A stretch of 64,000 nt of DNA from Sulfurovum sp. XGS-02 (GTDB taxonomy: Bacteria; Campylobacterota; Campylobacteria; Campylobacterales; Sulfurovaceae). Numbering within the stretch: the first letter of the stretch is position 1; every line of letters starts with the position of its first letter. Location of the stretch: NCBI RefSeq assembly GCF_023213175.1, contig NZ_CP093312.1:1550001-1614000 (forward strand), given 5' to 3'. A program made the translations under genes and the position numbers. The notes below the pieces were generated by a model. That model did not search any database. It had not been told where the DNA came from and saw only the letters and a list, made by a program, of their open reading frames with translations. Of the stretch, positions 18,889 through 58,327 are shown one piece after another.

Positions 18889-20244
18889 CTAAAAGTTATA
18901 AGATGCTATCACACGGAAGTGATTCATCTTCTTCTCCACTACTGCGCTGCTGTCATACTCACTGGTTCTGATAGCATTAAATACTTTTATCGTCCATGCT
19001 TTAGTCGGTTTGTAAGCCAAGATAATATCAGTCTCGGTCGCATCATTGCTCGCAACCAGATTCAACCCTGCATAGCCTGTTGTTTTAGACTTACCGTAAT
19101 TGGCATAGCTCGCCATAAGCTTTAGACCCTTCATGATCGTATAGTGTCCACCGACTTTGTATGCACTGACGTCTTGTCTATATGCATTACGAGAAAAAAG
19201 AGAACTCGTATACGCCGGATCCGTACCCCATGCATTTAAAAAACCGCTTTTGATCAATGTATTTCCGTCATTATCTTCATCATTCGACTTATTGTATGCT
19301 GCATACACCGACCATTTTTTATTGCCTATATTTGCTTTTACTCCCGTAAGGCTATAGTTCAGTGTTCCGGCCAGTTTATCACCGATCTCATCCTGTTGAA
19401 GATATTGGGCACTTAATGCAAGGTTTGTACCTTTCGCTACAGGGAATTTATAGTCAACATCTGCATAGAGCATATTCGCAATATCCCATGCATAGTAATC
19501 CCATAGAGATACTTTTAAACCTTTAATTCCTGTATATGTTGCTCCGGCTACCGTCATACCATTTGTGTCTTCATTAACCCCGGCACCTTCTGCAAGATCG
19601 TGAAATTCTGCTTGGGCTATTCCTGTAGCACTCTGTGTTTCCATTGGTCTGGCTACACCGGCGGTTTTAGTCTTCTCACCAATCAATCCCCAATCAGTTG
19701 CTGCTCTGGAACCATAAGACATTCTGCTAATATAACCAAGCTCGAATGAAAAACCATTAACCTTTTCGGCACCTAACATATAGGCTTCATAAAAGTTTGG
19801 CATCAAAGACCATTTGATCTGTGTCAGCGGTGTATTTAAAATCTGACGTCCGCCTTTAAATCGGAACTTATCATTTTTATACTCCAGATATACTTCACCA
19901 AGCAGCGACTTTTCATCACCTTCCACATTTGTAAACATTCCGAGTGCATTTTTCTTATCGCCGTCCCAGTCTGTAAGACCGGTATCGCCATTTACATAAA
20001 AGGCAGCACCAAACTTGAGTCCGTCTAGAACTTCGGGAGTTACATATTTAAGCGTACCTAAATAACCGCTACCATTATTTGGAGCCCATCCATTATCTTT
20101 ATCACTGATGATGTACATCGCTTTTAACTGTCCTGAAATGACTCCACCACTAAGTAATGCTGTTTCTTTCACTTTGGGTGCATCGGCCGCTTGAAGAATC
20201 ATTGTTCCCGCAAGTACCACTACTGAGATAGCTGTTTTTTTCAT
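18889..20244 (-). CDS. OprD-like outer-membrane porin
   Basis: The start is set at the ATG at 20244, preceded by AAAGGAA, which gives the signal peptide MKKTAISVVVLAGTMILQAA. A frame from 20298 would add 18 residues ahead of it. The mature protein, about 430 residues, is rich in alternating beta strands and aromatic residues and ends in Phe (ASYNF), the usual beta-barrel insertion signal. Segments such as FKGGRQILNTPLTQI and LMPNFYEAYML are typical of Campylobacterota OprD-family porins. It probably passes small anions or peptides. It is divergent from a rhodanese gene with a matching promoter and lies beside a two-component system. Confidence 0.87.
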   Translation of the reverse strand: MKKTAISVVVLAGTMILQAADAPKVKETALLSGGVISGQLKAMYIISDKDNGWAPNNGSGYLGTLKYVTPEVLDGLKFGAAFYVNGDTGLTDWDGDKKNALGMFTNVEGDEKSLLGEVYLEYKNDKFRFKGGRQILNTPLTQIKWSLMPNFYEAYMLGAEKVNGFSFELGYISRMSYGSRAATDWGLIGEKTKTAGVARPMETQSATGIAQAEFHDLAEGAGVNEDTNGMTVAGATYTGIKGLKVSLWDYYAWDIANMLYADVDYKFPVAKGTNLALSAQYLQQDEIGDKLAGTLNYSLTGVKANIGNKKWSVYAAYNKSNDEDNDGNTLIKSGFLNAWGTDPAYTSSLFSRNAYRQDVSAYKVGGHYTIMKGLKLMASYANYGKSKTTGYAGLNLVASNDATETDIILAYKPTKAWTIKVFNAIRTSEYDSSAVVEKKMNHFRVIASYNF

Positions 20245-20314
20245 TTTTATTCCTTTTTCCATATTTTGAATGGGACAATGATGACAGACTAATGTCAACT
20301 CTATATTAGTCCTT

Positions 20315-20332
20315 TGTTAATGGAGTGTTAAT
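20315..20332 (-). promoter_or_regulatory. PhoB-type direct repeat upstream of the porin
   Basis: On the minus strand ATTAACA occurs twice, separated by CTCC, giving an 11-bp period as in OmpR/PhoB-class binding sites. The same layout appears upstream of the divergent rhodanese gene, at nearly equal distance from its start. The response regulator at 22594-23283 is the obvious candidate to bind. Confidence 0.6.
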
Positions 20333-21386: not shown

Positions 21387-22597
21387 AGGCCTATCATAAA
21401 ACAGTTATACCCATTTTCATATCTGTATGAAAGGGTGTAACCATGCTCTTTAAGTATTTCATAGACGATATATAATCCCAAGCCAAAACTCTCCGAGGAT
21501 TTAACTTCACCTTTTGTAAAGGGTTGAATGTAATATTCTAGCTTTTCATCTATTTTGGCACCAAGTGAATAAAAACCGATTCCATTCGCATTGCATTCAA
21601 TGTAAAAATCATTCTCTTTTGCATATTTAAGACCATTGTCAATCAGGTTTTTAAATACGATTGTAAAGAGTTCAAAATTGACTTCTAATTTTCTTTCAGA
21701 AAAATTATTTTTAATAGAATTAGGTTCTAAAAACAGCATATCGGTAGCTTGATCTAAAATGTTCGTAAGCGAATAAGGCTTTTTTTCCAGTTTATGTTCA
21801 CTCGCTGTAATTTTTTCAATCTGAACAAATTCTTTTAATAGTAACTCAAGCCGTATAAACACTTCATTCAAGATATCCTTAGATTTGGACTCCTCTATAA
21901 ATTCCAGTGCCAGTTTTCCTCTTGTGATAGGTGTTTTACATTCATGTGTAATGTTCCTCAAAAAAATCATTCTTGCTTTTAAAAGATACCTTATTTTTTT
22001 AGCAGACTTATTAAATTCATTTGATACTTCAGCAATTTCATCATTACGGGTTGACGAGAAATCTATATCTATATTCCCCTCTCCAAAACTGCGTATTTGT
22101 TTTTGTAGATGTTTCAATGGTATAAGACTAATTGCGATAGAGAAAAAGAGAAGTAACATAATTGCAATAAAAGCAAAATATAACCACCAAACATAGTTAA
22201 CATTTATAGACTGTGTATCCATGTCTTTTAATAATATATTTCCAACTTGAGGTGGAACTACGACATATCTGTATAAACCTTTTTCATATAGATGAAAGTC
22301 TCCCTGCGCACAGGAGACAGTATCAAATTTTTCAAGTTTTTGAATCTCATCATAGAGCACATTATCATCAACCACATACATATTGTCTCTTTTTAGCACT
22401 TCAATGAGTTCTTCATAACTATTTTTACCAATTTTCCATCTCATAATAGACATAGCTACATGATGATAGTGTACTTTGAGTCTCTCTTTTTCATTTGTAA
22501 ATTCATATTGGTACATCACTTTAAAAAGAGCAGTAGTAGCCACTAAAGCTAAAAAGAAAAATAACACAATTCGTAATAATATTGCATGTCTATTCAT
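21383..22597 (-). CDS. Sensor histidine kinase, ArsS-like
   Basis: The 404-residue membrane kinase has helices at about residues 8-28 and 136-160 flanking a periplasmic sensor of about 105 residues. A HAMP-like linker follows, then the H-box ITHECKTPITRGKLALEF, the N-box FKNLIDNGLKYAKEN and the G-box ESFGLGLYIVYEIL. The compact ATPase domain resembles the ArsS/acid-response kinases of Campylobacterota. Its start overlaps the response regulator stop by 4 bases. With the adjacent porin and rhodanese it probably forms a sensing and response unit. The signal is unknown. Confidence 0.86.
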   Translation of the reverse strand: MNRHAILLRIVLFFFLALVATTALFKVMYQYEFTNEKERLKVHYHHVAMSIMRWKIGKNSYEELIEVLKRDNMYVVDDNVLYDEIQKLEKFDTVSCAQGDFHLYEKGLYRYVVVPPQVGNILLKDMDTQSINVNYVWWLYFAFIAIMLLLFFSIAISLIPLKHLQKQIRSFGEGNIDIDFSSTRNDEIAEVSNEFNKSAKKIRYLLKARMIFLRNITHECKTPITRGKLALEFIEESKSKDILNEVFIRLELLLKEFVQIEKITASEHKLEKKPYSLTNILDQATDMLFLEPNSIKNNFSERKLEVNFELFTIVFKNLIDNGLKYAKENDFYIECNANGIGFYSLGAKIDEKLEYYIQPFTKGEVKSSESFGLGLYIVYEILKEHGYTLSYRYENGYNCFMIGL

Positions 22598-23283
22598 CGT
22601 AGTATCATTCTATATCCAATACCCCGTACGGACTCAAAGTATTTTGGTTTTCTTGGATCGTCATTTAGTTTTGCGCGTAGTCGGCTTATAATAACATCTA
22701 TACTTCTATCTCCGCTGCTCCAGTTCATCCCATCAACATAATCTAAAATATCTTCACGAGAAAATACAATACCTCTCTTTTGTAAAAAAAGCTTTAATAC
22801 ACCAAACTCCGCTACAGTTAAATCTAATGCATCACCTTTAAAATAAATCTTCATAGTTTGTTTGTCACATTTAAACTCTTTATCTTCAAAAATATCATCT
22901 GTATGAAGTGTATTCTCAACTCTTCTGAGTTGCACTTGTATTCTTGCGATCAATTCACGGGTGTCAAATGGTTTTGGTAAGTAGTCATCTGCACCTTTCT
23001 CCAATCCTAGTACTTTATCACTGACATTGTCACGAGCAGACATAATGATAATAGGAATAGAGTATTTTTTTCGGATACGTTCGCAAAGAATCAACCCATC
23101 CATCTTTGGTAATGATAGATCAAGTAATATCAGTTTATAGGATTTATCTTCAAGCCTCATTAATACTTTTAACGGATCATGTAAAATATCAACCGTATAG
23201 TCACTGCTGATTAGATAGTCAGCGATAAGGTCTGATAAATCTATATCATCCTCTACTATCAATATGTCTGTCTTTTCTCTCAT
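22594..23283 (-). CDS. OmpR-family response regulator
   Basis: The 229-residue regulator has a receiver domain with acidic pocket E11-D12-D13, phosphoacceptor Asp55 (ILLDLSLPKMDG) and the conserved KPF lysine. A winged-helix DNA-binding domain follows (about 130-229), ending in RLRAKLNDDPRKPKYFESVRGIGYRM. It is encoded before and overlapping its kinase. Two PhoB-type repeats upstream of the porin and rhodanese are likely targets. Its own upstream region holds two palindromes that do not match those repeats. Confidence 0.9.
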   Translation of the reverse strand: MREKTDILIVEDDIDLSDLIADYLISSDYTVDILHDPLKVLMRLEDKSYKLILLDLSLPKMDGLILCERIRKKYSIPIIIMSARDNVSDKVLGLEKGADDYLPKPFDTRELIARIQVQLRRVENTLHTDDIFEDKEFKCDKQTMKIYFKGDALDLTVAEFGVLKLFLQKRGIVFSREDILDYVDGMNWSSGDRSIDVIISRLRAKLNDDPRKPKYFESVRGIGYRMILR

Positions 23284-47976: not shown

Positions 47977-49932
47977 TTATGCAGCGCTCACACGTTCCTC
48001 TATCTGACCTACGATCGTCGGATCTTCAAGTGTAGAAGTATCTTGTGTGATCTTTTCTCCTTTTGCCAGTGCTCTAAGTATCCTTCTCATGATCTTTCCC
48101 GATCTGGTTTTCGGAAGGTCCGGAACAAAGATCATATCGTCACACAGTGCGATGTTACCGATCTCGGTTTTAATGATCGCGTTGATCTCTTTCATGGTTT
48201 CAAGCTCACTTGCTACATCATCTTTAACAGATTTGAGTACGATATAGGCAAAGATACCTTCTCCTTTCAACTCATGCGGTTTACCTACCACAGCCACCGC
48301 TGCTACATTGTCATGCTTTTTGATCGCAGCTTCTACTTCAGCTGTACCCATACGGTGCCCGGATACATTGATCACATCATCTGTACGACCTGTGATCGTA
48401 ATGTATCCGTTTTCACCGTATATTGCACCGTCACCAGTGAAATATACTGGTTTACCCTCTTTTGTCACGTCTCCGAAGTAAGATTTTTTGAAACGCTCAT
48501 CATCACCCCATACACCACGGATCTGTGACGGCCAAGGACGTGTGACACACATATATCCGCTCTCACCTTCAGCTACTTTTTCACCTGTTTCAGGATCAAG
48601 TATCTCAGCCATAATTCCCGGTAAGGGAAGTGTTGCACATGCAGGCTTGATAGGTGTTGCACCAGGCAGTGGAGAAACGATGTGACCCCCTGTTTCAGTC
48701 TGCCAGTAGGTATCTACAATCGCACATTTGCTTTGACCTACTTCTTCATAGTACCATTTCCATGCCGGAGGATCGATCGGCTCTCCTACCGTTCCAAGTA
48801 CTTTAAGCGAGGTAAGATCATATTTGGCCGGTTCATCTTCTCCTGTTTTATGCAATACACGGATCGCTGTTGGTGCTGTATAGAACTGGTTGATCTTATG
48901 CTCTTCTACCATTTTCCAAGGACGACCTGCATCAGGGAAGGTAATGACACCTTCGAACATGACTGTGGTTGCACCCATTGCAAGCGGGCCATAAACGATA
49001 TAGGTATGTCCGGTGATCCAACCAATATCTGCTGTACACCAGTAGGTATCATTTTCCTTCACATCAAAGACCCATTCCATCGTCATTTGTGCCCATAAAA
49101 TATATCCGGCTGTACTGTGCTGTACTCCTTTTGGTTTACCTGTACTTCCAGAGGTATAGAGCAGGAAAAGAGGATCTTCACTCTCCATAGGTTCAGCATC
49201 ACATTGCCCCGATTTACTTTTGATCAGTTCATTGTACGAGTAGTCACGTCCTGCTACCCAGTTCACATCCTCATTGTTTCTCTCTACAACCAACACTTTT
49301 TCAACCGGTGTTTCACCTATAATTGCTTCATCTACCACAGGTTTTAGCATATAGGGTTTCGTTTTTCTGTATGCACCGTCTGCTGTGATCACCACTTTTG
49401 CCTCGGCATCTTCGATCCTGTCACGCAGTGCTTCTGAAGAGAACCCACCAAATACGATAGAATGGATTGCTCCTATACGTGCACAAGCAAGCATCGCATA
49501 AGCTGCTTCAGGGATCATCGGCATATAGATAACTACCCTGTCGCCTTTTTCTACACCGAAATCTTCTTTCAGAAGATTGGCAAATTTATTGACCTCCTCA
49601 TAGAGATCAAGATAGGTGATCACCTGTTTGTCACCTCTATCTCCTTCAAAAATAATTGCTGCTTTATTTTTCTGTGTCTCTAAATGACGGTCTATACACT
49701 GATGTGCAACATTTAACTTACCACCATCAAACCACTTTACAAACGGGGCATTCGACTCATCCAATACCCTGTCATACGGTTCAAACCAATCGATCTTTTC
49801 ATCTGCATACGTTTTCCAGAATCCTTCATAATCATCCGTTGCTTTTTTGACCAGGGCATGATATTCATCTATATTTTTTATTCTTGCATTTTTTGCAAAG
49901 TCCGGGTTTGGTTGATAGAGTTCTTGTAACAT
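47977..49932 (-). CDS. acs: Acetyl-CoA synthetase
   Basis: The 651-residue enzyme activates acetate to acetyl-CoA through acetyl-AMP. Motifs are [19 protein letters not shown] (P-loop), [17 protein letters not shown] and the C-terminal [13 protein letters not shown], whose lysine is the usual acetylation site. Length matches bacterial Acs. It is the last gene of the acetate cluster, 19 bases after the exonuclease gene. Confidence 0.98.
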
Positions 49933-49951: not shown

Positions 49952-50566
49952 TTATTTTAATTTTGTTGTATTTTTTAATTTAAGATAGATCATAGCCGTC
50001 ATGATGGCATCATTCAATGCATCATGGGCCTGAAGTTTTGGTAGATCCAAATCTTCCAAGATCGTATCGAACCGCAGATCTATATGTCCTTGAGGTATGG
50101 TTGGTATCTTTTTGTCATAATAGATCGCTGATACCTCTTCTTGTTTATTGGGTAGGGTAATACCATACATCGGTTTGATATATTTGTTTACCATAGCCAC
50201 ATCAAATTTCAGGTAGTAACCTGCCAAGGGTCTGTTCCCGATATAATAGAGAAACTTTTCGATAGCCTCATTGAGGGGGATCGCCCCATAAAGGTCACAA
50301 TTCCTTATCTGATGGATCGTGATACTTTTAGGATCAAGCGCTTTCTCCTGATCAATATAGATATGTATCGCTTCATCCGTAAGAATTCTGTTTCCCTTGA
50401 TCTTTACAGCCCCGATCGAGACAATATCATCCGATTTTGGATCAAGTCCTGTCGTCTCACAATCAACGACAACCATCTCATCAGCATCTGTTTCATCAAA
50501 TAAAAAGGTAAAACGTTCATCTTTTAGACTCTTGAGATTCCACTTCTTTTTTAATGATGTAAACAT
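49952..50566 (-). CDS. DnaQ-like 3'-5' exonuclease (DEDDh)
   Basis: The 204-residue protein has the DEDDh signature: [20 protein letters not shown], then [10 protein letters not shown] and [12 protein letters not shown]. It starts just one base after the DUF294 gene. This exonuclease/DUF294 pair is commonly seen next to actP and acs, but its role there is not settled. It may act on a nucleotide or RNA signal rather than in DNA proofreading. Confidence 0.87.
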
Positions 50567-52393
50567 TTAACCTACTATTGAGAGATGAAAGTGATAACTC
50601 ACGATCTTTTTAAACTTGTTCACGGTTTTTAGTGCCTCTTTTAAAAGGTCACGTTCAAGTTTTCCCAGGTTGACCACGGAGATATAGTTGTCTATTTTCT
50701 TCCCTTTTGAAAGCTGTTCAAGCTGGGAATGAAGTCTCAGTGTATTGAAGACTTCTAACGCCTCCATCAAATCTGTTGCATCTTCTTTACTCAAAAAACC
50801 GTTATTATTCAGCTCTTTGATACGTTGTGTTGTATTGGTCGCTCTGATCTGATGTTCCAAAGCCAATGCACGTACACCATGGATCAATGCAAATAGCGCA
50901 CCTTTTTTAATGTCTATCTCATTTTTATGTGCTTTATCGTGCACAAACTGGGAGAAGAGTCCCAGTGGAGACTCAAAAGTCTCAATCGCTCTTGCAAAAT
51001 GCATAAGTATTGACGGGGTTTGTTCTACTTTGCTAAAAAGGTAATCGATCAATTCCGTATGAAGTGTTTTCTTACCTGCAACAGGTGTTGAATCAAAAAA
51101 AATGGCCATATCCAGAAATTTCTCATACGTTGGTGCTTCGATCCAATCATAGATATCTTCCTTGTATGCTTCAATCGGTTTGCACCATTTTGGAGTGATC
51201 ATCATAATACCGCCTTCGCAGCGTGGGAAACCTATCTCATCAAGTACTTCGATAAAACGCTGTGTAACAGAAGTTACATCCTCTGGCATGAAACCCTCTT
51301 CAAAGACAAGGGCATTATCCTGGTCTGTCCTGAGTATCTGAGAAGCACGCCCTTCACTGCCAAGAAGGATAAGTGTACATTTATCCTGCCATGTATGCGG
51401 GATGATCATTTCAAAGAGCTTGCTATACATTTTTCTGTTGATCTCAGAGACCAACTTGGCTATATACCGGCTTTTCACACCTTTTACATGCAGTGCGCTG
51501 ATCATGACATCCAGACGTTTCGCTGCATCTACCACACTCTCAAGATCTTGTGCTCTCTCCATCTGAACCGTAATGAGATGAGACTGATTAGAGAAGAAAC
51601 TCAGCAGATCGACAAGCTCAAGTATACCTACAACATTGTGCATTTCATCCAATACAGGGAGGTGTTTGATACTGTGCTCTGTCATCAGGAGTAAAATGTT
51701 AAAAAGAAGTTCTCCATTTTGAATGGAGATGGTAGGATAAGTTTGTATCTGTGAGATCTTTTCTAAACCTTTTTCCTCTTTGTGCAGAATATAATATCTG
51801 AAATCAGCATCGGTAACGATCCCGTACCCTTCCTCATTGTCAACCAGTAGACAACTCGCCCCCTCGTCATCCATACGTTGAAGTGCCTCAACGATAGGCA
51901 TATCCGGAGTGACCATAACGTCTTTATGCAAAATAGATTCATCCACTCTTGCGATCATCAAGTCGCTCATAAAGGCATACTCTTTCTTTTCTTTAAGCAT
52001 GTCGATACGTTCTACGATACTTGAAAAGAAATAATGCTTGAAATCCTTATTACTTTCACACATATCCAGGAATACCGTTTTAGGGACCTCAAAACATATC
52101 AATTCTTCTGTCACGATATAACTATAGGTAGAAGGCTCTTCTTCAATGATCTCAATACCACCAAACATATCATGTGTGTGATAGATATCAATCAGCTCTT
52201 CATATTCATCACGTACCTCAACACTGCCTTTTATCACAATAAAAAGATTTTCAGGCATTGTATCTTTACCTATCAGCACTGTATCATTAGGATAGTATGC
52301 GATCTGTGCATGGCTTTCCATACGATCAAACGCATTGTGATCCAAAAACGTAAAAGGCGGATATGATTTCAAGTTCTCTAATAGTGTGATCAT
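50567..52393 (-). CDS. cNMP-binding / CBS / DUF294 nucleotidyltransferase-like protein
   Basis: The 608-residue protein has three parts. A cyclic-nucleotide-binding-like domain covers about residues 15-130 (LIGKDTMPENLFIVIKGSVE). Two CBS domains lie at about 150-275 (DEGASCLLVDNEEGYGIVTD and HLPVLDEMHNVVGILELV). A DUF294 nucleotidyltransferase-like domain follows with GSEGRASQILRTDQDNA. The family is linked with acetate and carbon regulation. Ligand and transferase substrate are unknown. Confidence 0.88.
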   Translation of the reverse strand: MITLLENLKSYPPFTFLDHNAFDRMESHAQIAYYPNDTVLIGKDTMPENLFIVIKGSVEVRDEYEELIDIYHTHDMFGGIEIIEEEPSTYSYIVTEELICFEVPKTVFLDMCESNKDFKHYFFSSIVERIDMLKEKKEYAFMSDLMIARVDESILHKDVMVTPDMPIVEALQRMDDEGASCLLVDNEEGYGIVTDADFRYYILHKEEKGLEKISQIQTYPTISIQNGELLFNILLLMTEHSIKHLPVLDEMHNVVGILELVDLLSFFSNQSHLITVQMERAQDLESVVDAAKRLDVMISALHVKGVKSRYIAKLVSEINRKMYSKLFEMIIPHTWQDKCTLILLGSEGRASQILRTDQDNALVFEEGFMPEDVTSVTQRFIEVLDEIGFPRCEGGIMMITPKWCKPIEAYKEDIYDWIEAPTYEKFLDMAIFFDSTPVAGKKTLHTELIDYLFSKVEQTPSILMHFARAIETFESPLGLFSQFVHDKAHKNEIDIKKGALFALIHGVRALALEHQIRATNTTQRIKELNNNGFLSKEDATDLMEALEVFNTLRLHSQLEQLSKGKKIDNYISVVNLGKLERDLLKEALKTVNKFKKIVSYHFHLSIVG

Positions 52394-52443: not shown

Positions 52444-54111
52444 CTAGTGAGCTACTGCTCCATCAGACCCGATACCCGTTTGACACCTAATGTCCTGAGC
52501 ATCAAACTCATCCATACATCTTTGTGCATCCTCGCTCTTATCCGTGATCGAGAAGAACCAGATCGCCACAAATGCTATAGGTACTGAGAATACTGCCGGA
52601 AATTTATAAGGTACGATCGCTGTCTCATTACCCAGAATCTGTGTCCATACCACAGGACCAAGTATAACAAGTACAAGTGCGGAGATCAATCCGACATACC
52701 CGCCAAGTACAGCACCTCTTGTCGTAAGCTTCTTCCAGAAGATCGACATAAAGAGTACCGGAAAGTTAGCTGATGCTGCGATAGTAAATGCCAATGCCAC
52801 AACAAAGGCGATATTTTGCTTTTCAAAGGCAATACCAAAGAAGATCGCTGCAATACCAATAGCAATCGTCGCTACTTTAGAAACATTCATCTCTTTGTTC
52901 TCATCGACTTTACCTTTTGCAAATGCATTGGCGTAAAGGTCATGAGAGATCGCTGATGCACCTGCAAGTGTAAGACCCGAAACAACGGCCAGGATCGTAG
53001 CAAATGCTACAGCTGAGATAAACCCAAGGAAGTAATCCCCGCCTACTGCATGCGCCAGCCATACTGCTGCCATGTTGTTCATACCCTTCAGTGTCACACC
53101 GTCAGCGGCCAAGTAAGACCCTGCCGGATCTCCAAGTACAAGTACGATCGCACCGAATCCCATGATAAATGTCAGTACATAGAAGTAACCAATCAATCCA
53201 GTGGCAACAAAGACTGATTTTCTAGCCTCTTTTGCATCTGCAACTGTAAAGAATCTCATAAGGATATGCGGAAGACCCGCTGTACCGAACATCAATGCAA
53301 TACCAAGTGAGATCGCTGAAATAGGATCAGAAACAAGACCGCCAGGGCTCATGATATCTACACCTTTTGAGTGTATCTCTGTGGCTTGTGTAAAGAGTGC
53401 ATCAAAACTGAACCCAAACTTTGCCATCACCATGATCGACATAAATGTTGTACCCGCAAGCAGTAATACCGCTTTAATGATCTGTACCCACGTAGTTGCA
53501 AGCATACCACCAAATGCAACATAAAGGATCATGAGAATACCGACAAGAACCACGGCAAACTCATAATCTAAACCAAATAAAATTTCGATCAATTTACCTG
53601 CACCGACCATTTGGGCGATCAGGTAGAGGATAACCACCGAGATCGAACCCAGTGCAGCCAAGATTCTTACAGGCTTCTGCTTTAATCTATAGGCAGTCAC
53701 ATCTGCAAATGTATATTTACCAAGGTTTCTAAGCTGCTCGGAGATCATAAAAAGAATGATAGGCCAACCTACCAGGAAACCGATAGAGAAGATAAGACCA
53801 TCATACCCTTTAAGGTAGACCATTCCCGTAATACCCAGGAAAGATGCCGCTGACATATAGTCACCTGCAATCGCTGTACCGTTCTGCGTTCCCGTGATAC
53901 CGCCACCAGCTGTATAAAAATCACTTGCCGATTTTGTTCTTTTTGAAGCCCAGTAGGTAATACCCAGTGTGGCAGCAACAAAAATAAAGAACATCACAAT
54001 AGCAGGCACATTCAGCTCTTCCGCTTTTGTACCGGCACCTAGATCCGCTCCTGCTGCAAAGGCAACTGTTAGTGAAGCCATCATAAATAGAGATAAAATT
54101 CTACCTAACAT
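52444..54111 (-). CDS. actP: Cation/acetate symporter ActP
   Basis: The 555-residue member of the sodium:solute symporter family has an N-terminal signal-like helix and about 13 membrane helices. Family segments are [39 protein letters not shown] (in part) and LLIAGTTFMS-like stretches. It imports acetate with a cation. It overlaps the DUF485 gene by one base, the usual yjcH-actP arrangement. Confidence 0.95.
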
Positions 54112-54431
54112 TATTTCATCTCCTTTTCAATATCATTTTTCAGATCATTTAAGAGCCCATCGAATTCACCGTTGGCCCTTCTTACATAAATTCCCGTCAT
54201 TGCAAATGCAAAAACGATAATAGCAATACCCACAGGTATACCCCATGTAGCCATACCGTCAGGGCTGATTTTAGTGCCCAATGTTTCCGGACTGAATGCA
54301 ATAAACAAAATAAATGCATAATAGACCACCAACATGATCACTGTCAATGTCCAGGCGAATCTGCTTCGTGTACCTACAAGTTTTTTGTACTTAGGATTGT
54401 TCTTGATCTGCTGTACTTGTTCTTGTGTCAT
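54111..54431 (-). CDS. DUF485 membrane protein (YjcH-like)
   Basis: The 106-residue protein has two membrane helices (about 30-50 and 63-85) with the DUF485 motif [22 protein letters not shown]485 proteins are nearly always next to ActP and probably help it. The stop of this gene and the ATG of actP share one base. Confidence 0.93.
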
Positions 54432-54492: not shown

Positions 54493-55872
54493 TTAAAAAT
54501 TATAGTTTACAATGAGTCTATACTCATCCCAATCCAAACCATTTTTAAAATCTCTTGGGTAGTTTGCTCTTGCTCTTACGTTAAGTCCCTCAACCGAAGC
54601 GACATTGTATTGAATATCCCAGCCAGATTCTGATGCTGTCCATGCAGTACCGTAATCGTAGCTGTTAGTTGCACCAATATCAAATTCCGTATAAAATACA
54701 GACGCTTTCACATCTGCACCAAGCAGTGCATTGAGTTTATAGGCTCCGGCTACTTTCCAGCTATTCGTGTCCGAGAAGAACTGGTGTCTGGTCACCATAC
54801 CTTGGGTAAATGCTGGCATACCACCCCATGGTGTAATAACTCCACCCGATGTTGTACCATCACTCTCACCTGTTTGAGAATAGGCTACATAAGCACTTAA
54901 TGCACCTGAAGCTGCACCTAGTTTGACACCCCAGTAATCGCTGTCAACTTTTGCTGCCAGGGCATCCCCTACATCACTCTGACCGATATATTGTGCTGAA
55001 GCATTCATCTTTACATTCTCATTTAAAAGACACTTCCAACCATAATCTGCCTGAAGATAGATGGCATTGAGAATATCATGTGCATAGTAGTCCCACGCCT
55101 GCAGGGTCAATCCATCAATCCCTTGATAGGTCACAGCAGCTACTGTGACTCCATCTGTACTATTATCCGTACTGCCATTGTTGTTAAAATCATTATAACC
55201 CAAGGCTACAGTACCCATATTTACAAAGTCACCGCTCTGTGCCAATGTCGTACCTGCACCGTAACCACTTGCGAAACCTAATCCGTAGCCATCATCATAA
55301 ATATTACTGAAGGTACCCGTAGTCTCTCTGGTGATGTGTGCCAATGTTAAAGTAGTATCTTCAATATCAGTGTTCGTAAGCACCGCTGCTTCAAAAAGAT
55401 TTGGAAGCATTCTTGCATCATCAGCACCTGCCAATGGTGTATCAAGTCTTTGACGACCCACCTTAATATTTGTATTGTCAAATTTATAGTTAAGATATGC
55501 TTGTCCTATAAATGCATAATTGTCACCATCACGACCCATCAATGCAGGATCATAGCTATTTGTGTCACCACTGTCGCTATCTACTTCATGAATATTGAAT
55601 CCATACACACCGTAAGCTGCTACAGCTGCTGTCAATCCATTAAAGTCTGGTGTCTTATACCCTATATAACCACCTGTTGCAAGTGAATTACGGTTGTTAT
55701 TGACTAGACCAGAATAGGTTCTGTCAATATAAAATGTTCTGAATTGTCCAAACACTTCACCATAATCGACCTCTGCTGCTTCTGCTGCTACAACCGGTTC
55801 AACTGGAGCAATATCTCCTCCTGCCATGATTAGAGTAGATGCTATAACAGATAATGCTAAATGTTTTCTCAT
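54493..55872 (-). CDS. OprD-like outer-membrane porin of the acetate cluster
   Basis: The 459-residue protein has a signal peptide (MRKHLALSVIASTLIMAGG). Like the porin at 18889 it has the IKVGRQRLDTPLAGADDARML segment, an NLFEAAVL stretch, many beta strands and a final Phe (VNYNF). Its place between a two-component system and the actP genes suggests it admits acetate or other small carboxylates. A two-copy 11-bp tandem repeat lies 40-61 bases upstream of its start. Confidence 0.87.
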   Translation of the reverse strand: MRKHLALSVIASTLIMAGGDIAPVEPVVAAEAAEVDYGEVFGQFRTFYIDRTYSGLVNNNRNSLATGGYIGYKTPDFNGLTAAVAAYGVYGFNIHEVDSDSGDTNSYDPALMGRDGDNYAFIGQAYLNYKFDNTNIKVGRQRLDTPLAGADDARMLPNLFEAAVLTNTDIEDTTLTLAHITRETTGTFSNIYDDGYGLGFASGYGAGTTLAQSGDFVNMGTVALGYNDFNNNGSTDNSTDGVTVAAVTYQGIDGLTLQAWDYYAHDILNAIYLQADYGWKCLLNENVKMNASAQYIGQSDVGDALAAKVDSDYWGVKLGAASGALSAYVAYSQTGESDGTTSGGVITPWGGMPAFTQGMVTRHQFFSDTNSWKVAGAYKLNALLGADVKASVFYTEFDIGATNSYDYGTAWTASESGWDIQYNVASVEGLNVRARANYPRDFKNGLDWDEYRLIVNYNF

Positions 55873-55911
55873 TGTATCTCCTTATTTTTATACGTTGGCA
55901 GTATGAAGGGT

Positions 55912-55933
55912 GAACATAGCATTAACATAGCAT
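55912..55933 (-). promoter_or_regulatory. Two-copy 11-bp tandem repeat upstream of the acetate-cluster porin
   Basis: On the plus strand GAACATAGCAT is directly followed by TAACATAGCAT, with 10 of 11 bases identical. An exact 11-bp period is the hallmark of OmpR/PhoB-type sites. The adjacent response regulator (56020-56682) is the likely binder. Confidence 0.6.
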
Positions 55934-56019: not shown

Positions 56020-56682
56020 TCATATCTGTTTTGAAAGAATATATCCTACACCTTTTAATGTTGTGATGAGATCTTCTTTTAACACTTGACGAAGCCTATG
56101 TATCTCAGCCCGTATAATGGCATTGTCTACAGGGCTGTCATCCCATACATAGTGTCTGAGCATTTCAAAGTCAACCACTTTGTTGATATTTTTTGAGAAC
56201 AGGTCCATGATCTGTAACTGTTTTTGTGTAAGTAACTGTGCTTCTCCATCAAACATTAAAGATTGATTCTCTACATCATAGCTGTACATCTTTGATATCT
56301 TTATAAGATCTTTTGCCCTGATATCTGCCATTTTTAACAATCTGTCAATATGCAAACTTAACTCTTTGAGATGAAAAGGTTTTTTCAAATAGTCATAGCA
56401 CCCCAAAGCATAGGCCTGACTTATCTGTTCAATCTCTGTAATCGCAGAGATAAAGATCGTTGGCACATAGATCTTCTCTTTTTGCAATCTATCAAGCAAA
56501 GAGAGCCCATCCATACTTGGTGTATTGATATCAAAGATAAACAGATCATAGCTGTTCGAAGCTATATTGTCATAGGCTTCCTGTCCATCGTCGAATGCGG
56601 TTACTTCAAAACCGATATCTGACAGATACTCTTTGATAGCACCCTGGAGCATCAGCTCATCTTCAAGTAATAATACTTTCAT
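56020..56682 (-). CDS. OmpR-family response regulator of the acetate cluster
   Basis: The 220-residue protein has a receiver domain with acidic residues E7-D8-E9, phosphoacceptor Asp51 (FIFDINTPSMDG) and the KKPF lysine. A winged-helix domain follows, ending RLRQVLKEDLITTLKGVGYIL. It is encoded after and overlaps the kinase by 20 bases. The probable target is the porin promoter, which carries an 11-bp tandem repeat. Confidence 0.9.
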   Translation of the reverse strand: MKVLLLEDELMLQGAIKEYLSDIGFEVTAFDDGQEAYDNIASNSYDLFIFDINTPSMDGLSLLDRLQKEKIYVPTIFISAITEIEQISQAYALGCYDYLKKPFHLKELSLHIDRLLKMADIRAKDLIKISKMYSYDVENQSLMFDGEAQLLTQKQLQIMDLFSKNINKVVDFEMLRHYVWDDSPVDNAIIRAEIHRLRQVLKEDLITTLKGVGYILSKQI

Positions 56683-58327
56683 CCTGCTCCTTCTTTTTAA
56701 ACCTATAAGAGAATAGTGTCATCTCATTATCAGATTGTACATCTATTTTAACATTTTCTTTTTGACATATGCTATATACGATTTCCAGTCCCAATCCAAA
56801 TCCACCCCTTACATCATTCTCACGTTCGAATGGCTTAAAGATACGTTCAGTATCTTCTATTTTGGGTGAATTGCCTATAAACTCTAAAACGATCTCTTCA
56901 TTCTCTTCTTTCAATACAACCTTGACGTCTGTACCTCGGTTGGCATATTTGATGGCGTTGGATAGATTGTTGTCTACAATCCTTTGCAATTCTTCTTCAC
57001 TAAAATAGATCCAAAGTTCATTTTGTATCTCTTCTATGATCTTATGTTTATTACCTGATGCAATTTCTGCAAAAAAGTCCACTCTCTCTTTAAGAAAATC
57101 AGACATATTAAAATACTTTTTTTTATAATCAAAACGGTTTTTTTTCACCATATAACTCAAATCGGCATAGATATTGGAGATGATCTTGCTTGCTGCTTCT
57201 ATTTTAGTCAGATACCTGTTTCCCCCTTCTTTCATCTTAAACAGATCAATATGGGTCATGATCACTGCCAAAGGCGTATTGATCTCATGAATAGAATGTT
57301 TGATGAAACTGTCTTGCGCTTTCACCAGTGAAGCATTGAAATCTTTCTCTTGTTCCAGTAGGATATTCTGCTCGCTCAGGTCCTTTGTTTTTTGTTCGAC
57401 CTTTGATTCGAGTGTAAGGTTCAACTCTTTGAGTTTCTGTTTTCTTTCCTGAATAGCAGTGATCATTGTATTGATGTAATGCACCATTTTTTTAAACTCA
57501 GAGAGCCGTATCTTCTCCTTATCTATCTTTTCATACGTGAATGCAGCTTTTTCGAAATAACGGTTAAAGAGTGATATCTCTTTGTTCAGTATGTGATTTG
57601 TAATGATAATACCTACCATCCCTACGATAAATAGGATCACGAGAAGAAGTACCATTTGAAGGGAGTAGTGATTGAGTTTGTTTTTGAGTGTTTCCCTTTG
57701 GGTTTGAATCAGTTTTTCCACTTCATCAAGGTAGACCCCTGTTCCGACCATCCAGCCCCAGGGTTCAAATGATTTTGCATAAGAGATTTTAGGACCCAAT
57801 AGACCTGTAGTAGGCTTCAACCATTGATACTCTACAAATCCTCCCTCTTTGGTCCGTGAGATATCGATAAGGTCTTTGATCACCATCACACCATTGATAT
57901 CTTTAGTCTCATACAAGTTTTTACCTACATTTTGTCTCTGAATAGGGTCAGAAAGTACCACACCGTTAAAATCATAAACAAAAATGTAACCTGTACCATC
58001 TTGACGTCCGTAAAGTTCTTCGATGGCATGAAGAATTTGTTTTTTGACTGTTTCTTCATCTTGTTCTTTATCTCTATTATCATAGGCATTATTGATAAAA
58101 TTGAGTACACGTGTCGTATCAAAAACGATCGTATCTTTTTGTTTCTGAATAAATTCAGCATGTAGACTTTGCGCTTCTATTTCAAAATTTTGATACTCTT
58201 TATAGGCAACCATAGCTGAAAAGACTACAATAACCACAAGCATGATAAGCATACCGGCTGCATGTATACTTGCAATGGTTTTATTTTTTAAAAAATTGAT
58301 ACTGCTCTCCATCTGCAATGGCAGCAT
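56663..58327 (-). CDS. Sensor histidine kinase with a periplasmic Cache-like domain
   Basis: The 554-residue kinase has helices near residues 18-40 and about 222-245, with a single-Cache-like sensor between them. Key parts are DGTGYIFVYDFNGVVLSDP, GGFVEYQWLKP and PWGWMVGTGVYLDEVE. Such domains bind small organic acids. A coiled coil, H-box (HSIHEINTPLAVIM), N-box (VDNNLSNAIKYAN) and G-box (GGFGLGLEIVYSI) follow. The start could also be the ATG at 58312. Location before a porin and acetate genes suggests a carboxylate sensor, which is inferred. Confidence 0.87.
   Translation of the reverse strand: MLPLQMESSINFLKNKTIASIHAAGMLIMLVVIVVFSAMVAYKEYQNFEIEAQSLHAEFIQKQKDTIVFDTTRVLNFINNAYDNRDKEQDEETVKKQILHAIEELYGRQDGTGYIFVYDFNGVVLSDPIQRQNVGKNLYETKDINGVMVIKDLIDISRTKEGGFVEYQWLKPTTGLLGPKISYAKSFEPWGWMVGTGVYLDEVEKLIQTQRETLKNKLNHYSLQMVLLLVILFIVGMVGIIITNHILNKEISLFNRYFEKAAFTYEKIDKEKIRLSEFKKMVHYINTMITAIQERKQKLKELNLTLESKVEQKTKDLSEQNILLEQEKDFNASLVKAQDSFIKHSIHEINTPLAVIMTHIDLFKMKEGGNRYLTKIEAASKIISNIYADLSYMVKKNRFDYKKKYFNMSDFLKERVDFFAEIASGNKHKIIEEIQNELWIYFSEEELQRIVDNNLSNAIKYANRGTDVKVVLKEENEEIVLEFIGNSPKIEDTERIFKPFERENDVRGGFGLGLEIVYSICQKENVKIDVQSDNEMTLFSYRFKKKEQDESIIT

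Follow-up and report, generated by a model that had tools for sequence, protein, structure and literature searches.

A conserved 11-bp tandem repeat ahead of the acetate-cluster porin of Sulfurovum sp. XGS-02, a likely operator of the neighbouring two-component regulator

The repeat and its surroundings

We studied a stretch of 64,000 nucleotides from Sulfurovum sp. XGS-02 (contig NZ_CP093312.1, positions 1,550,001 to 1,614,000), called here the window, and in it a pair of adjacent 11-bp units located between the gene of an OmpR-family response regulator and that of the OprD-family porin which opens an acetate cluster. All the genes concerned lie on the - strand, in the following order: histidine kinase, response regulator, gap, porin, DUF485 membrane protein (which we take to be YjcH-like), ActP-like symporter, DUF294 protein, exonuclease and acetyl-CoA synthetase (Acs). 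Their coordinates are given in Table 1. The gap is 147 bp long and contains both units, the hexamer CATACT and the sequence AAGGAG before the ATG of the porin.

On the + strand the units read GAACATAGCAT (55912-55922) and TAACATAGCAT (55923-55933). They are equal at 10 of 11 bases, as the initial annotation had reported, and its coordinates, 55912-55933, are confirmed. These units are the reverse complement of what is read in the orientation of the porin, namely ATGCTATGTTA-ATGCTATGTTC, followed after 6 bases by CATACT (55905-55900), and we consider this - strand reading, together with the -10-like hexamer, to be the better description of the conserved block. The last six bases of unit 1, ATGTTA (55923-55928), occupy the -35 position at a spacing of 17 bp, and transcription would start near 55893.

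The exact pair has a single match in the window and in the whole genome of 2.19 Mb. The statement of the initial annotation that the window holds no other copy stands even when up to 3 mismatches are allowed (100 shuffles give a mean of 0.00). At the same tolerance, the genome contains the exact site and one match with three mismatches elsewhere, the reversed pattern used as a control giving 1, while another scan of the genome yielded 8 matches with at most one mismatch, the site included, against 11 for the reversed pattern. These whole-genome scans revealed no other target above the reversed-pattern control; the many unrelated copies which had been named at the outset as an objection to a binding site were looked for and did not appear. 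Uniqueness alone is nevertheless weak evidence, because an 11-bp tandem pair with at least 10 of 11 bases equal, which occurs once in the window, is found on average 0.66 times (maximum 4) in windows resampled at first order.

Table 1. Coordinates in the window of the repeat, the promoter and the neighbouring genes
Feature	Position	Strand	Basis or remark
Operator unit 1 (predicted), ATGCTATGTTA, upstream half	55923..55933	-	TGCTA invariant in 54/54 porin promoters
Operator unit 2 (predicted), ATGCTATGTTC	55912..55922	-	TGCTA invariant in 54/54 porin promoters
-10-like hexamer CATACT	55900..55905	-	28 bp from first base of unit 1; offset kept in 54/54
Porin ribosome-binding site AAGGAG	55878..55883	-	Sequence
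Sensor histidine kinase, extracytoplasmic Cache domain	56663..58327	-	PF08269/PF17200, PF00512, PF02518
OmpR-family response regulator, proposed binder	56020..56682	-	PF00072 + PF00486 (receiver + Trans_reg_C winged helix)
OprD-family porin, first gene of the acetate cluster	54493..55872	-	Pfam PF03573, E 9.4e-26
DUF485 membrane protein	54111..54431	-	PF04341
ActP-like sodium:solute symporter	52444..54111	-	PF00474
cNMP-binding/CBS/DUF294 nucleotidyltransferase-like protein	50567..52393	-	
DnaQ-like exonuclease	49952..50566	-	PF00929
Acetyl-CoA synthetase (Acs)	47977..49932	-	PF00501, PF16177, PF13193

Conservation of the repeat at related loci

Two samples of loci were compared; they overlap in their genomes and are not summed. 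The first consists of 29 loci of the same genus with a response regulator of at least 65% identity, among which the pair is present by eye in 28, sometimes with mismatches, while the 29th (L017) stops at a contig end. For the second, 80 related loci (L070-L149) were fetched, of which 54 have a porin match and form the porin-bearing set, and the site was scored as the best match to ATGCTAN5ATGCTA within 420 bp upstream of the porin. It was found in all 54: 32 matches are exact, 16 have one mismatch, 5 have two and 1 has three. The 48 sites with at most one mismatch may be compared with resampled segments, of which 0.27% of 10,800 score as well. The TGCTA columns are identical in both units of all 54 porin promoters; since the core served to anchor the alignment, its own columns are favoured, whereas the -10 is not. 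A -10-like hexamer stands 28 bp from the first base of the site in 34 of 34 loci among L070-L116 and in 20 of 20 among L117-L149, when every other offset from 21 to 38 never exceeds 9 of 34 or 4 of 20. The site lies 60-68 bp from the porin in the 32 loci where the match begins at porin residue 1, and 37-232 bp from it in the other 22, for which the porin start is only estimated.

We regard this conservation in relatives as the decisive evidence for the repeat, and it led us to discard a chance tandem repeat. A functionless product of chance or slippage, or a variable-number repeat tuning the spacing of the promoter, would agree with the resampling figure given above, and one locus (L020) has three units, against two in its relative L019. 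However, both cores and the -10 spacing are kept in 54 of 54 promoters, and in L020, despite the extra unit, the last two units stand at the usual distance from the -10, so that we hold such an origin to be extremely improbable.

The porin is at most 450 bp from the response regulator gene in 45 of the 54 loci and 852-6769 bp away in the other 9, and in all 9 the site stays with the porin. In six loci without a porin match (L097, L101, L104, L111, L112, L114), the gene after the response regulator is that of a symporter about 30% identical to ActP, and the site is found ahead of this symporter in each of them (four with one mismatch, two with two). Judging from these positions, we take it that the site belongs to the transporter promoter. 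The idea that it is a part of the 3' end of the response regulator gene was rejected, as 15 loci in which response regulator and kinase were matched and a transporter was not (L084, L108, L113, L119, L121, L124, L127, L131, L133, L134, L140, L141, L142, L148, L149) show, within 900 bp or up to the contig end, no match with fewer than 3 mismatches. In one of them, L127, sites with one mismatch occur some 1.6 kb past the response regulator gene; L085, L099 and L135, which stop at this gene, are outside the count.

The same loci bear on the hypothesis that the repeat acts as RNA, in a leader structure or in the terminator of the response regulator gene, and not as a DNA site. Its place between two co-directional genes would suit such an element. 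Against it speak the 15 loci just listed, the location of the repeat upstream of the predicted -10, a fold of the intergenic strand no better than that of shuffles (z 0.43) and the fact that no terminator-like site was found. In L107 and L115, where only response regulator and kinase were matched, a one-mismatch site does follow the response regulator. We consider an RNA element very improbable.

Further copies with at most one mismatch occur inside the cluster. One precedes acs in L079, L080, L081, L083 and L090, that is in 5 of the 14 loci where acs is preceded by a gap of 100 bp or more and in none of the 23 where this gap is shorter; another is ahead of the DUF294 gene in L089, and L075 and L087 have a copy past the exonuclease gene, close to where the fetched sequence stops. 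No site was seen upstream of the histidine kinase gene, and autoregulation of this gene was discarded. ActP itself may be replaced: a symporter of about 30% identity takes its place in L074, L075, L079, L080, L083 and L090, as well as in the six porin-less loci, the two-component system and the site (at most two mismatches) being kept.

Hence, as the pair recurs before the same genes, at the same distance within the promoter and in many related bacteria, it is in all likelihood the docking site of the two-component regulator encoded next door.

The repeat and the regulator across the class

We scanned 397 genomes of the class with the pattern TGCTAYNTTNATGCTAYNTT and counted a homologue of the response regulator as present at E<=1e-50, a threshold which admits paralogues. 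The pattern was found in 69 genomes, the backward control pattern giving one match by reading of the table, and the homologue in 129. All 69 site-bearing genomes carry a homologue and none of the 268 genomes devoid of one has the site (Fisher p 1.5e-41, kinship ignored). Within the genus, 32 members have no response regulator of at least 65% identity; 27 of these have no actP match and 5 have one at E<=0.001. In one of the five (G040) the match is at only 32% identity; for the remaining four (L180-L183), the flanks fetched, 1.5 kb long and not necessarily extending to a porin, contain no site within one mismatch.

These counts must be set against the view that the repeat is read by a different regulator, either an OmpR-family paralogue or a global carbon regulator, and that the response regulator is merely the neighbouring gene. 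The genome of the window contains 20 other matches to this protein at E<=0.001. Moreover, in L203, L204 and L230, all of family f6, tandem TGCTA sites are enclosed by a DctP-type gene and the gene of another OmpR-type regulator (assigned by Pfam for L230 only). The L230 site is one of those of the class scan with no gene ahead, and from its position some of these may be read by paralogues. Yet the genome of the window has a single site, site and response regulator co-occur, and the genus members without a close response regulator show either no actP match or only the 32% one of G040 or, for L180-L183, no site within one mismatch in the 1.5-kb flanks. We therefore think that another regulator is unlikely to be the reader here. 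Binding by the adjacent regulator, which the initial annotation had proposed, is strongly supported on comparative grounds by the conservation in 54 of 54 porin promoters, by the 9 of 9 distant porins and by the co-occurrence in 69 of 69 genomes.

The class scan gave 90 sites for examination, 89 of them distinct, and 66 of the 89 have an open frame of at least 100 aa on the same strand, starting 20-420 bp downstream. A -10-like hexamer is present at offset 28 in 49 of these 66 sites, the next best offset reaching about 12, and in none of the 23 sites without such a frame. The downstream proteins form clusters of 23 porin-like proteins, 15 symporters, 11 phosphate acetyltransferases, 4 DctP proteins, 3 molybdo-oxidoreductases and smaller groups (Pfam was run on ten representatives). 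At four of the 15 symporter sites (L240, L250, L256, L259), a porin-like frame comes first. The phosphate acetyltransferase genes preceded by a tandem site belong to family f6 (L188, L189, L191, L195, L196, L199, L200, L209, L218, L219, L228; assigned by Pfam for L188 only). Ten distinct sites of this group have the -10 at offset 28, and the eleventh is the upstream register of a three-unit site in L228. We had taken the downstream pair of L231 and L233 for isocitrate lyase, a candidate which was dropped when Pfam gave a hydrogenase small subunit for L231. Around 2980-3040 of L226, two tandem sites, one on each strand, are placed back to back; they are flanked by an exonuclease-like gene and by a DUF485-ActP-like pair, these genes being named by look.

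Related operators and a possible mechanism

The repeat resembles the pho box of the E. coli PhoR-PhoB system at phoA, in which two 11-bp direct repeats over the -35 are likewise read by an OmpR-type regulator. The phoA cores TGTCA start 27 and 16 bp before TATAGT, which we take to be the -10 of this promoter, and the TGCTA cores of the window start 27 and 16 bp before CATACT (the E. coli stretch used was located 43 bp before phoA). According to a review, the two 11-nt direct repeats which make up the pho box are occupied head-to-tail, and PhoB contacts sigma70 (PMC4415409); a published model allows joint binding of a PhoB dimer and of sigma across the -35 region (PMC3348028). By analogy, the response regulator of the window would bind both units and recruit the polymerase. 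The system of the window differs from that of pho by its core, TGCTA in place of TGTCA, by its kinase and by its genes, a carboxylate cluster and not those of phosphate starvation. The window site has the features of a tandem operator of the PhoB/OmpR type, that is direct repeats with an 11-bp period, a regulator with receiver and winged helix and a fixed place over the -35, but neither the TGTCA-type core nor the phosphate genes of a pho box proper, and we would class it as a new member of this known kind. The helix region DNAiIRAEihR is conserved across 80 aligned response regulators, that of the window among them.

In the phylum, the nearest published relative that we found in the open-access literature is PceP (RR2), of the tetrachloroethene two-component system of Sulfurospirillum, for which CTATA motifs with six-nucleotide gaps, hence an 11-bp period, are described in ppceAB (PMC7755780). 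The consensus given there, CTATW-N17-CTATW, is absent from the window site, where CTATG occurs twice at a 6-bp gap with none 22 bp on, and the targets of PceP concern organohalide respiration (PMC7755780). In gammaproteobacteria, acs and actP are under two-component control by CrbS/CrbR through the ACTU motif during acetate use (PMC5715377). However, CrbR is of the LuxR type and has an (imperfect) inverted repeat, and CrbS is fused to a symporter domain, whereas the window has an OmpR-type regulator, a direct repeat and a Cache kinase. A study of Arcobacter butzleri in a host-cell model reports a general upregulation of actP and yjcH, no regulator of them being named in that part of the account (PMC9927503). 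Among the matches listed in the open-access literature, we found no description of the site or of its regulator.

The window contains a second tandem of 11 bp, ATTAACA-CTCC-ATTAACA (20315-20332, - strand), before a second OprD-family porin (18889-20298), in a block of 18.7-23.5 kb which also holds an OmpR-type regulator (22594-23283); its grammar is similar and its unit is another one. The initial annotation held that the two sites differ. This is true of the units on the gene strand, TGCTA repeats in one case and ATTAACA repeats in the other, but both sites are 11-bp tandems and they have ATTAACA in common, in opposite orientations with respect to the gene, since this heptamer is contained in the acetate-cluster repeat at 55921-55927 of the + strand.

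The sensor region of the kinase matches the Cache domains of the PDB entries 2qhk, 4exo, 4k08 and 5g4y and, more weakly, that of TlpB (3ub6). PscD (5G4Y) is reported to bind acetate, glycolate, propionate and pyruvate, with contacts to the ligand by Tyr90, His103, Tyr143 and Lys156, and acetate is described in 4K08 and pyruvate in 4EXO (PMC5062169). In our alignment, with positions counted by hand, the kinase of the window keeps Tyr90, Tyr143 and Lys156 but has Asp for His103. A small carboxylate, acetate or another, is hence a likely signal but not an assured one. TlpB also has Asp at this place of the alignment. The sensor appears to be exchanged in the loci with shorter kinases: most kinase frames of L117-L149 measure 398-439 aa and have no Cache motifs by pattern search (L135 does have such motifs, and the frames of L132, L148 and L149 are of other lengths), and Pfam detected no Cache family in any of the three shorter kinases tested (L100, L122, L147). 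In L117-L149, and also in L100 and L109, the regulator is kept, together with the site where a porin was found, and the kinase mostly has about 400-440 aa.

We consider the following explanation, taken as a whole, to be highly probable. The Cache-domain kinase would sense a signal, probably acetate or another small carboxylate, and cause phosphorylation of the response regulator, two effector domains of which would settle head-to-tail on both TGCTA cores, over the -35 region. The bound regulator would then recruit RNA polymerase to CATACT and switch on an operon comprising the genes of the porin, the DUF485 protein, ActP, the DUF294 protein, the exonuclease and Acs. The same regulator might instead be a repressor blocking RNA polymerase at the -35 and -10 until the signal releases it; a protein bound to the units, which extend over the -35 position and into the spacer, can also act as an obstacle there. 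This seems improbable to us: the spacing is identical to that of the phoA promoter, which PhoB activates; the -35 position matches TTGACA at only 1-4 of 6 bases across the 54 promoters; and the authors of the work on PceP, whose repeats overlap the -35, speak of transcriptional activation (PMC7755780).

Several points weigh against activation by the neighbouring regulator as set out above. The loci share ancestry, so that their counts are not independent. As a weak -35 element is a common feature of promoters in this class, a poor -35 is no proof of dependence on an activator. The exact class pattern is missing from 60 of the 129 genomes with a response regulator homologue, divergent sites not having been sought, and 23 of the 89 class sites, having no frame downstream on the same strand, do not fit the simple picture of an activator upstream of a gene. 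Of the 14 loci where acs follows a gap of 100 bp or more, 9 have no site at that place. Lastly, the kinase has Asp at the carboxylate-binding His103 of PscD.

A broader conjecture, whose chances we put at about even, is that TGCTA-N6-TGCTA would be the operator of a class-wide regulon for small carboxylates in Campylobacterota, with a single subfamily of OmpR-type regulators as its readers. Around a constant regulator and operator, the kinase sensor, the transporter (ActP, another symporter, a lactate permease or DctP) and the number of target operons would be exchanged, pta being among the targets in family f6.

Finally we must note what the repeat offers. It is a concrete, testable candidate operator for the control of acetate uptake in sulfur-oxidising Campylobacterota, and a single pattern predicts targets in other genomes; the finding is useful because the acetate regulation of this group becomes directly testable. 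The match of its geometry to that of the pho box suggests that distant bacteria may share a way of recruiting RNA polymerase.
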